Of a stretch of DNA of 64,000 nt, positions 56,668 through 61,877 are shown piece by piece (the stretch's first letter is position 1; the number at the start of each line of letters is the position of its first letter). A program made the translations under genes and the position numbers. Source of the DNA: Dehalococcoidia bacterium (GTDB lineage: Bacteria; Chloroflexota; Dehalococcoidia; SM23-28-2); the NCBI GenBank assembly GCA_030615765.1, contig JAUWYP010000001.1:1-64000 (forward strand). Reading direction: 5' to 3'. The notes beneath the pieces are model-generated. The model made no database searches, had not been told where the DNA came from, and saw only the letters and a program-made list of their open reading frames with translations.

Positions 56668-56761
56668 TGGCTCTTGGCTAGCCAGCCCGCTCCGGCCATA
56701 GAAGCGCGATCCCCTGCCCTCCACCAAAGCCCGACCGACGGGCGCTGAAAGGAGCATCCCC

Positions 56762-57310
56762 ATGCCCTGGATCAGGACCGTTCCCTATGAGGAGGCCAGT
56801 GGTATCCTCAAGCAGGAGTACGACGGCGCCCTCAAGCGGGCCGGCCGTATCTACAACATCGTCAGCCTGCAAAGCCTGCGGCCACGCGCCCTGAGGGCCT
56901 CCATCCGCCTGTACGGGGAGCTGATGAACGCTCCCTCCGGCCTCAGCCGTGTCCAGCGGGAGGCGATAGCCACGGTGGTGTCGCGCACGCTGGGCTGCCA
57001 CTACTGAACGGAGGCCCACGCAGAGGATCTGCGTACGGTCAGCGGCGATGAGCAGCTCGCGCGGCGGGTCAAGGAGGACTACCGCTCGGCCCCCATCGAC
57101 GGGGCGACGCGGGCGCTGCTCGATTTCGCCGTGATGGTCACCCACGACGCCACCAAGGTCACGCCTCGTGACCTCGAGGCGCTGCGCGCTGAGGGCTTCG
57201 GCGATGAGGACATCCTGGACGCGGTGGGGATCATCGGCTTCTTCAACTACTACGCGCGCATGGCGGACGCCCTGGGAGTGGAGCTGGAGGCGGACTGGGC
57301 GGAGGAGTGA
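56762..57310 (+). CDS. AhpD-like (carboxymuconolactone decarboxylase) selenoprotein with in-frame UGA
   Basis: Reading through UGA at 57005-57007 gives 182 residues of the peroxidase-related AhpD-like family. The active-site motif CxxC-x3-H appears as C-H-Y-UGA-T-E-A-H, so UGA stands exactly where the second redox Cys belongs. Homology continues unbroken on both sides (VSRTLGCHY | TEAHAEDLRTVSGDEQLARRVK, then ALLDFAVMVTHDATKVTPRDL and DAVGIIGFFNYYARMADALGVEL). A hairpin follows the UGA at SECIS distance. AAAGGAG lies 7 bases before the ATG. Selenocysteine is inferred; a nonsense mutation is the alternative. Confidence 0.82.
57018..57034 (+). promoter_or_regulatory. SECIS-like hairpin for selenocysteine insertion
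   Basis: ACGCAGA-GGA-TCTGCGT, a perfect 7-bp stem with loop GGA. The loop starts 18 bases after the UGA, inside the 16-37 base range of bacterial SECIS elements, and begins with G as those usually do. Confidence 0.65.
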
Positions 57311-58123: not shown

Positions 58124-59440
58124 CTATTCTGTCTCCTCCTCCGGGGGCACCCATACCGGGCCGAAGAACTCCCACCTGCCCTTCCCATGCTCGTCGACGA
58201 CAGCCCGCAGCATCACGCCGTCCTCCAGGACCCTGTGGTCGGTGTCGGAGAGGGAGATGCTCACTTCGTCCAGGAACAAGTCGCTGTGATAGTCCGTAAG
58301 GGACTCGACGGCGTCCAGGAGCCCCTCTCGGGTGAGGTTGTCGCAGGTTCTGCTGAGCGCCTCCACCGCCAGCTCTCCCACCGTCTGGGCGTAGACGGTG
58401 AAGTTGGTGGGGGTGGGCCCGCCGTACTCCTTCATGAGCCGGTAGTGTTCGGCTACGGCCGGGTCGTCGGTCCAGGTCGCCAGCTTGACGCCCTGGAAGC
58501 TAATGGCCCCCTCCAGGAGCTCGGGCGGGACGAACTGAAACATCATTTCGTCGGCGCTGACGTAGCTCAAGAACCACTGGGGATACCAGCCCAGGCGGGC
58601 GGCCTGCTTAATGGCCTGAGCGCTGAAGCCGGGAGTGGCATTGGTGGTGACCACCTCGGCGCCGGCCTTTTTCATGTTGGTCACCTGGGAGCTGATGGAT
58701 ACCGCGGTGATCTCGAAGCTCTGCTCGGAGACGATCTGGTTCTTATCGGGGTCAAGGCCCAGCTTGACCCCTTCCAGGCAGTCGGTACCCATGGCGAGAT
58801 TCGGATAGAGGACAGCCACTTTCTTGCCGGGCAGGTTTTCGGAGATGTACTGGCCGAAGGCCAATCCCTCCAGTTCGTTGCTGCCGATCATCTGGACGGT
58901 CCAGGGGTGCCCCTCGGGGTCATCGCCGAACATGTGAGCCCCGACGGAGACCAGGATGTCGGGCACGCCGTTCTCATTCAGGTAGTCCCAGACGGCGGGA
59001 TGGGGAGCATCGCCCAGGGAGCCAACGATGGCGAATACCTTGTCCTGTTCCACCAGCTTGCGCACCGCCTCGATGGCCCTAGCCGGGTCGTCCTGGTTGT
59101 CCTCCACCTTGTAGACGATCTTGCGACTGCAGACGCCCCCCTGGGTGTCGTTGATGTAATCGAAGTAGGCTTGTGTGGCCTGAGGGATCGTGGCGTACAC
59201 CGCCGCCAGGGCGCCACTGAGGGGTACATCGGCTCCCAGGATTATCTCCGTGTCGGTGATGCCGGGCACCTCCGCCGTGGCGGCAGGAGTGGCGGTCACC
59301 GCGGCTGTGGGCGTGTCGGTAGGGGTGGGAGTCGCCTCTTCTTCCTCTCCGCAGGCCACCGCGAGGGTGATGACAACCAGACAGGCTGTAAGCAGAGCAG
59401 TGGTTTTGCCTGGCAACGGCGGGGCATACTTGACCTTCAT
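58124..59440 (-). CDS. Solute-binding lipoprotein, LivJ type (paralogue 2)
   Basis: Substrate-binding protein of an ABC transporter, 438 residues from ATG 59440 (chosen to match paralogue 3, which starts MKVKYA; an ATG at 59452 is also in frame). Lipobox LAVAC, acidic run, Thr/Pro linker, then GITDTEIILGADVPLSG and the Peripla_BP_6 domain with TQGGVCSRKIVYKVEDN and FAIVGSLGDAPHPAVWDYLN. Strongly similar to the copy at 60552 over its whole length, and the promoter region is duplicated too. No permease genes nearby; ligand unknown. Confidence 0.88.
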   Translation of the reverse strand: MKVKYAPPLPGKTTALLTACLVVITLAVACGEEEEATPTPTDTPTAAVTATPAATAEVPGITDTEIILGADVPLSGALAAVYATIPQATQAYFDYINDTQGGVCSRKIVYKVEDNQDDPARAIEAVRKLVEQDKVFAIVGSLGDAPHPAVWDYLNENGVPDILVSVGAHMFGDDPEGHPWTVQMIGSNELEGLAFGQYISENLPGKKVAVLYPNLAMGTDCLEGVKLGLDPDKNQIVSEQSFEITAVSISSQVTNMKKAGAEVVTTNATPGFSAQAIKQAARLGWYPQWFLSYVSADEMMFQFVPPELLEGAISFQGVKLATWTDDPAVAEHYRLMKEYGGPTPTNFTVYAQTVGELAVEALSRTCDNLTREGLLDAVESLTDYHSDLFLDEVSISLSDTDHRVLEDGVMLRAVVDEHGKGRWEFFGPVWVPPEEETE

Positions 59441-59503
59441 CTTATCCGACACCCTCCATGAAACTCGCCCAGTCCTGACAATGGGACCAGTGCTGGCAGT
59501 CGA

Positions 59504-60551: not shown

Positions 60552-61877
60552 TCATTCCAGGTTCTGCTCTTCGAACAGATATAGCGGGCCGAAGTACTCC
60601 CACTTGCCCTTCCCATCCTCCACCGTAGCGCGCAGCATCCTGGCGGTCTCAAAGGCCGTGTGGTCGGTGTCGGAGAAGGAGATGTTCACTCCGTCTATGA
60701 GCAGGTCGCCGTGCCAGTCCTTGATGGACTCGAGTGCATCCATGAGCCCCTCTCGGGTGAGATTGTCGCAGGACCTGCTGAGCACCTCCACCGCCAGCTC
60801 TGCCAGCGCCTGGGAATAGATGGTGAAGTTGGTGGGCTGGGGCCCATCGTACTCCTTCATGATCCGGTAGTGCTCGGCTACAGCCGGGTCGTCGGTCGAG
60901 GTCGCCAGCTTGAGGGCCTGGAAGGTGATGGCCCCCTCTAGGAGCTCGGGCGAGACGAACTGAAACATCATTTCGTCGGCATTGATGTAGCTCAGCATCC
61001 ACTGGGGATGCCAGCCCAGGCGATCGGCCTGCTTGATGGCCTGAGCGCTGAAGCCGGGAGTGGCATTGGTGGCGACCACCTCGACGCCGGCGTTCTTCAT
61101 GTTGTTCACCTGGGAGCTGATGGAGACCGCGGTGATCTCGTAGCTCTGCTCGGAGACGATCTCGTTCTTATCGGGGTCCAGCCCGTCCTTCACCCCTGCC
61201 AGGAGGTCGGTGCCCATCATGAGATTCGGGTAGAGGACGCCCACCTTCTTGCCGGGCAGGTTTTCGGAGATGTACTGGCCGAAGAACACCCCCTCCATCC
61301 GGAAGCCGGGGATCATCTGGACGGTCCAGGGGTGCCCCTCGGGGTCGGCGCTGTATATGTGAGCCCCGGCGGAGCACAAGATGTCGGGCACTTCATTTTC
61401 GTTCAGATACTCCCAAACGGCGGAGTGGGGAGCATCGCCCAGGGAACCAACGATGGCGAATACCTTGTCCTGTTCCACCAGCTTGCGCACCGCCTCGATG
61501 GCCCTAGCCGGGTCGTCCTGGTTGTCCTCCACCTTGTACACGATCTTGCGACCGCAGACGCCCCCCTGGGTCTCGTTGACGTAATCGAAGTAGGTTTCTA
61601 TGGTCTGGGGGATCGTGGCGTAGACCGCCGCCATGGCGCCGGAGAGGATGAAATCGGCTCCCAGGATGATCTCTGTGTCGGTGATGCCGGGCACCTCCCC
61701 CACGGCGGTAGGAGTGCCGGTCTCTGCGGCTGTGGGCGTGTCGCCAGGGGTGGGAGCCCCCTCTTCTTCCTCCTCACAGGCCACCGCTAGGGTGATGACA
61801 ACCAGACAGGCTGTAAGTAGAACAGCCAGCAGAGCAGTGGTCTTACCTGGCAACGAGAGAGCGTACTTGACCTTCAT
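60552..61877 (-). CDS. Solute-binding lipoprotein, LivJ type (paralogue 3)
   Basis: Substrate-binding protein of 441 residues starting MKVKYALSLPGKTTALL, lipobox LAVAC, acidic run, short Thr/Pro linker and a Peripla_BP_6 domain (GITDTEIILGADFILSG, TQGGVCGRKIVYKVEDNQDD, PGFSAQAIKQADRLGWHPQW). It differs from paralogue 2 mainly in the linker and in scattered residues. AAGGGG lies upstream of the ATG. Tandem copies with no permease suggest either a shared transporter elsewhere or a non-transport sensing role. Confidence 0.88.
   Translation of the reverse strand: MKVKYALSLPGKTTALLAVLLTACLVVITLAVACEEEEEGAPTPGDTPTAAETGTPTAVGEVPGITDTEIILGADFILSGAMAAVYATIPQTIETYFDYVNETQGGVCGRKIVYKVEDNQDDPARAIEAVRKLVEQDKVFAIVGSLGDAPHSAVWEYLNENEVPDILCSAGAHIYSADPEGHPWTVQMIPGFRMEGVFFGQYISENLPGKKVGVLYPNLMMGTDLLAGVKDGLDPDKNEIVSEQSYEITAVSISSQVNNMKNAGVEVVATNATPGFSAQAIKQADRLGWHPQWMLSYINADEMMFQFVSPELLEGAITFQALKLATSTDDPAVAEHYRIMKEYDGPQPTNFTIYSQALAELAVEVLSRSCDNLTREGLMDALESIKDWHGDLLIDGVNISFSDTDHTAFETARMLRATVEDGKGKWEYFGPLYLFEEQNLE

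Follow-up and report, generated by a model that had tools for sequence, protein, structure and literature searches.

Evidence for an AhpD-like selenoprotein with a CxxU redox site in an uncultured Dehalococcoidia bacterium

The window, i.e. the whole stretch of 64,000 nucleotides analysed here, contains a gene whose reading frame carries a single internal UGA codon at the redox site of the encoded protein. Judged from the sequence comparisons, this codon (57005-57007) almost certainly specifies an active-site selenocysteine. We have very little doubt that the product is an AhpD-like selenoprotein (peroxidase-related, TIGR01926/COG2128) with selenocysteine as residue 82; a redox role in peroxide defence is its most likely function.

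The gene and its reading frame

The UGA codon is in frame with the ATG at 56762 and is the only internal TGA before the true stop codon TGA at 57308-57310. The read-through product (MPWIRT...LGCHYUTEAHAEDLR...ELEADWAEE) comprises 182 amino acids, and the UGA forms the second member of the motif C79-H-Y-U82-T-E-A-H86. The earlier note had placed the codon at the second position of a CxxC-x3-H redox motif, which is borne out at 57005-57007; all of its coordinates proved correct. The features of the gene are as follows.

56750..56754, + strand: AGGAG, probable Shine-Dalgarno sequence, read from the sequence, 7 nt upstream of the ATG
56762..57310, + strand: gene of the putative AhpD-like (TIGR01926/COG2128, CMD) selenoprotein, 182 residues with U82 (translation, Pfam CMD, TIGR01926, PDB 2pfx, Foldseek)
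56960..56962, + strand: codon of Glu67, equivalent of AhpD Glu118 and PA0269 Glu36 in the proton relay; invariant in alignment A1, with the E-x11-C spacing (PMC3141380)
56996..56998, + strand: codon of Cys79, first residue of CxxU; invariant in alignment A1
57005..57007, + strand: UGA codon, almost certainly for selenocysteine 82; all 50 Sec-type homologues have TGA in this column, the 16 of the Cys type a Cys codon
57017..57019, + strand: codon of His86, the proton-relay histidine of CxxU-x3-H; invariant in alignment A1
57018..57034, + strand: bacterial SECIS hairpin, 7-bp stem, loop GGA (stem-at-position test, covariation, bSECIS model quoted in PMC13188914)

Without recoding, standard ORF calling yields only 81 amino acids, the truncation that had been predicted for automatic annotation, and the active-site residue is lost. 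Since standard gene calling reports this 81-residue fragment, AhpD-like Sec proteins are probably mis-annotated across Chloroflexota genomes.

Upstream of the gene a purU-like gene and cutA are found, and downstream a lipoprotein-like ORF, in place of which the orthologues in the genomes G008 and G021 have a methyltransferase. In these three neighbourhoods we saw no pointer to function. Further along the window, two similar ORFs on the minus strand (58124-59452 and 60552-61877) resemble ABC-type branched-chain amino acid/amide substrate-binding lipoproteins and apparently stem from a local duplication.

Family, fold and active site

The Pfam CMD domain matches residues 41-93 (2.4e-13) and spans the UGA, in line with the earlier claim that the frame is homologous on both sides of this codon. 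The NCBIfam model TIGR01926 ('peroxidase-related enzyme') covers residues 2-174 and scores 135.5 bits (1.6e-39), above its cut-off of 81.8. In the PDB the sequence matches 2pfx (4.6e-29), and a Foldseek search with the AlphaFold model found 2pfx with a TM score of 0.79 and AhpD-like peroxidase-related proteins as top matches. The model is of moderate quality, with a mean pLDDT of 72; most of the catalytic core reaches 80-95, and residues 27-39 and the two termini are poorly predicted. The TIGR01926-type structures 2pfx, 3c1l, 6k40, 2prr and 2oyo share the predicted fold (TM 0.68-0.81) and the active-site layout with the window protein, but have Cys where it has Sec82. The protein falls outside two neighbouring families. 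With the classical AhpD model (TIGR00777) it reaches 21.3 bits against a cut-off of 191.95, and no ahpC lies nearby; with the NF041238 equivalog (AhpD_rel_CFYUT (seleno)protein) it reaches 67.2 bits against a cut-off of 175. The latter family is homologous over the AhpD core and has the motif C-x-Y-U-T in common with the window protein.

Residues E67, C79, Y81, U82 and H86 align with E36, C48, Y50, C51 and H55 of Pseudomonas aeruginosa PA0269, and the same relay is present in Mycobacterium tuberculosis AhpD (E118, C130, H132, C133, H137), Sec82 standing at the Cys equivalent to AhpD Cys133. The window protein fits the proton-relay pattern E-x11-C-x-[H/Y]-C/U-x3-H; AhpD and PA0269 have this relay in common with it at identities of about 13% and 26%, respectively, both with Cys instead of Sec.

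From these data we infer the following course of events. A ribosome arriving at the UGA 57005-57007 would meet the SelB-Sec-tRNA complex held by the hairpin 57018-57034, and selenocysteine would be inserted as residue 82. Sec82 would then pair with Cys79 in a selenenylsulfide redox couple, Glu67, Tyr81 and His86 helping as a proton relay of the AhpD type. The protein would thereby reduce an organic peroxide or hydrogen peroxide, or pass electrons to a peroxiredoxin, and one of these two functions appears to be the most likely. The window gene is the sole CMD-family gene found in the host genome; two AhpC-TSA genes are present, both away from it, and no peroxiredoxin or other redox partner was seen adjoining it.

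A selenoprotein that is not a peroxidase, with the CxxU site acting as a disulfide reductase or dehalogenase, is unlikely but deserves some weight. Enzymes with different chemistry are built on the CMD/AhpD scaffold as well, such as the debrominase Bmp8, which is among the structural matches (19% identity), and carboxymuconolactone decarboxylase; moreover, TIGR01926 proteins have no established substrate, and ahpC is not adjacent to the window gene. Against this, the nearest relatives by sequence and by fold are peroxidase-related proteins, the full E/C/Y/C/H relay is present, and PA0269 has weak H2O2 reductase activity (PMC3141380). We prefer a role in peroxide defence.

Homologues with Sec or Cys at the redox site

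Homologues were matched in 28 of 100 related genomes and, at E <= 1e-15, in 65 of 393 genomes of the class. The nearest relatives belong to uncultured Chloroflexota (CAJXNA010000154, JADFRV010000011 and CAUJGQ010000047). Two genomes of the same genus (82% and 74% complete) gave no match to the window gene, and the viral contigs and plasmids that were searched contained no relative. Altogether 66 homologues were analysed at the UGA site, a comparison which the earlier note had proposed: 50 of them, drawn from numerous Chloroflexota genomes, contain exactly one in-frame TGA, always in the same column, and 16 have Cys there. The homologues in G008 (74% identical), G021 (73%) and G079 (53%) have TGA at the same codon followed by the same hairpin. 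As these are independent metagenome-assembled genomes, a misread TGC or TGT codon is excluded.

Compared with G008, dN/dS (NG86) is 0.23 before the UGA and 0.28 after it. The changes at first, second and third codon positions number 9/10/27 before and 22/17/43 after the UGA, third positions changing most. By these measures purifying selection acts on the frame before as well as after the codon. A tree of the 66 homologues requires at least three changes between Sec and Cys, and places the window gene in a supported clade of four (window, G008, G021, G079; 100/99) which is entirely of the Sec type; some deep branches of the tree are long and their order is unsure. With Sec and Cys members built on a single scaffold, the AhpD-like family allows the two residues to be compared cleanly in nature.

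Two homologues deviate at the redox site. The G019 orthologue (L023 / L079, G019:C227) is 80% identical over residues 1-61 and is without the middle of the protein including the redox site, apparently by an in-frame deletion near the contig end, which is either a real deletion or an assembly artefact. In the gene L038 (G048:C15; motif GGAPULGLH) the site is occupied by TGA, but the first Cys and the usual hairpin are absent; the gene may be decayed, or it may encode a protein in which Sec stands alone.

The SECIS hairpin

Downstream of the UGA the arms ACGCAGA (57018-57024) and TCTGCGT (57028-57034) enclose the loop GGA (57025-57027). This agrees exactly with the earlier description of a 7-bp hairpin starting 11 nt after the UGA, with its loop 18 nt after. 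According to the bSECIS model, as cited in PMC13188914, a hairpin should have a loop of 3-9 nt, a stem of 4-16 bp, a G in the first two loop positions, a distance of 16-37 nt from the UGA and an MFE of at most -7.5 kcal/mol. With its GGA loop, a stem of 7 bp, a spacing of 17 nt from UGA to loop and an MFE of -17.3, the window hairpin agrees with all of these constraints and lies, as had been claimed, inside the bacterial SECIS window.

Taken alone, the stem of the window gene is moderately unusual, about 3-5% of synonymous shuffles giving an equally good one; the weight of the hairpin evidence lies in the comparison across homologues. Little could be learned from MFE z-scores relative to synonymous shuffles (means of -0.84 for Sec and +0.79 for Cys), the family codon usage in this test including the constrained codons and the Sec gene L091 being counted among the Cys rows. 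We therefore used an explicit stem-at-position test with correct Sec/Cys labels. Of the 50 Sec-type genes, 41 have a stem of 6 bp or more whose 3-nt loop occupies exactly positions +18 to +20 from the UGA, whereas synonymous shuffling of codons predicts 3.2; among the 16 Cys-type genes there is 1 (0.55 expected). When stems of 7 bp or more with a loop beginning in G were counted at any permitted position, the numbers were 45/50 against 8.0 expected for the Sec type and 1/16 against 0.9 for the Cys type. Because the sequences are related, these counts do not represent independent events.

Covariation was assessed in an ungapped alignment of 36 distinct sequences, each chosen for at least 4 pairs at the stem position. 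This selection inflates the percentage of paired cells (98% against 87.6% in shuffles) and affects the covariation counts less. Double changes occurred in 29 cells compared with 9.5 +/- 3.6 in the shuffles, and the covariation score was 0.332 compared with 0.136; for both values 0 of 500 shuffles were as high. When one strand was shifted against its partner by 1-3 bases, the paired cells fell from 98% to 28-59%. The covariation is carried by the pairs 17:27 (CG, GC, GU, UA) and 20:24 (AU, GC, CG).

A second group of homologues, with the motif CAYUTKAH or CEYUTKAH, has no stem at +18 to +20 and instead shows an 8-9 bp stem whose loop is in most cases found at +27 to +29. A family in which SECIS hairpins occur at two distances should be useful for the study of SelB recognition.

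Selenocysteine machinery of the host

The host genome (2.08 Mb in 56 contigs, 92.7% complete, 5.93% contamination) contains all four genes that the earlier note had named as a check. A family search found selA (9.5e-137) and selD (6.4e-108), and selB was identified with 625 amino acids and 342 bits over its pieces. The tRNA-Sec gene selC scores 78.3 bits against a cut-off of 47, was found again by Rfam, and has the anticodon UCA (ARAGORN: tRNA-SeC). The selD gene itself contains an in-frame UGA (at SCAGUAGK), and SelD is a second selenoprotein of this genome. As the assembly is fragmented, the sel genes are situated on contigs other than that of the window, and their composition was therefore compared with it. 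The tetranucleotide correlation of the sel contigs with the window is 0.86-0.91; for the controls it is 0.75-0.92 between pieces of the window and the rest, and 0.56-0.81 for pieces of other genomes. In tetranucleotide usage the sel contigs are thus as close to the window as its own pieces are to one another. In the search of the 100 related genomes, selA was matched, whole or in pieces, in 15 of 17 genomes having a TGA-bearing homologue of useful score, the host included and the TGA column being uninspected for G019. It was not found in the remaining two, G014 (78% complete) and G017 (84%).

Two further elements were noted close to these genes. Directly downstream of selA and on the same strand lies a LigB/Memo-AMMECR1 fusion gene (L047:5496-6878, minus strand, contig C32 of the host), and about 4 kb from the tRNA-Sec gene there is a SAM riboswitch (Rfam RF00162, 80 bits; L048:5600-5729, minus strand).

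That the frame downstream of the UGA evolves as a translated protein would also be expected if UGA encoded another amino acid genome-wide (e.g. Trp or Gly), or if a near-cognate tRNA allowed low-level read-through, in both cases without selenium. We consider this very improbable: UGA is the ordinary stop codon of the window gene and of cutA just upstream, the homologues have one TGA each and always at the redox cysteine, and the complete sel pathway with a UCA tRNA-Sec is accompanied by a covarying SECIS element. Still less probable is a pseudogene or sequencing error, i.e. a TGA that arose from a Cys codon by mutation or misreading so that an 81-residue fragment remains; a single TGA does cut an otherwise normal Cys-family frame, but the identical TGA recurs in the independent assemblies at 74%, 73% and 53% identity, purifying selection persists after the UGA, and the conserved hairpin is essentially limited to TGA-bearing copies. 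Error, pseudogene and genome-wide recoding are thus, on the comparative evidence, excluded or very unlikely, because the TGA stays in one column, the hairpin is conserved and covaries, and purifying selection acts on both sides. Decoding as selenocysteine remains the preferred reading.

Relation to known selenoproteins

Selenoproteins with CxxU, of the AhpD-like (COG2128) and the CMD-domain type, have been described from the Sargasso Sea with 27 and 4 sequences, respectively (PMC1088965), and from sequenced genomes (PMC1794560). In the GOS survey, AhpD-like 1 (COG2128, CxxU) was the fourth largest selenoprotein family with 299 sequences, and AhpD-like 2 had 70 (PMC2398784). A TIGR01926 CxxU entry is part of the current inventory (PMC13188914), and Chloroflexi with selenoproteins had been noted as early as 2006 (PMC1794560). 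The earlier statement that such proteins are known in a few bacteria is right in that they are known, whereas 'few' understates their number. Since CxxU AhpD-like selenoproteins were already described in 2005-2008, the window gene is a well-supported addition to a known family. It has in common with AhpD-like selenoprotein 1 (PMC1088965, PMC2398784), likened here by family and motif, the common subfamily, the CxxU motif with Sec second and the SECIS directly downstream, and differs in its uncultured Chloroflexota host and small all-Sec clade.

In the open-access literature we found nothing specific on selenoproteins of Chloroflexota/SAR202 and no account of how far the Chloroflexota radiation reaches, with its tandem copies, its selA linkage and its two hairpin registers; as only this literature was covered, the absence proves little. 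The Sec-TIGR01926 genes of Chloroflexota may form a large, little-described radiation. It would comprise a clade, including the window gene, in which no Cys member was found, tandem arrays with as many as four Sec genes in one genus, and a subfamily linked to selA in which the hairpin is displaced downstream by 9 nt, so that the family would have two or more SECIS registers. Such a radiation would point to a redox function that depends on selenium and is more specialised than common peroxide defence. For this reading as a whole we see about equal chances of being right or wrong.

Among the tandem arrays, L083 (G246:C22:17500-23702) has four Sec-AhpD genes in a row, G246 containing six copies in all. 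Further arrays are present in G356, G341 and G029 (L084, L085 and L021, the last with two copies), and each copy in the arrays has its own UGA and its own hairpin. The second subfamily (CAYUTKAH) is situated about 1-3 kb from selA in opposite orientation in at least 6 genomes, of which the regions L097 (G021:C84) and L095 (G007:C26) were read and G005, G016, G019 and G020 were assigned by coordinates. In the two regions read, a DinB-like ORF lies between selA and the CAYUTKAH gene, joined in G021 by a glyoxalase-like ORF (both named by eye).
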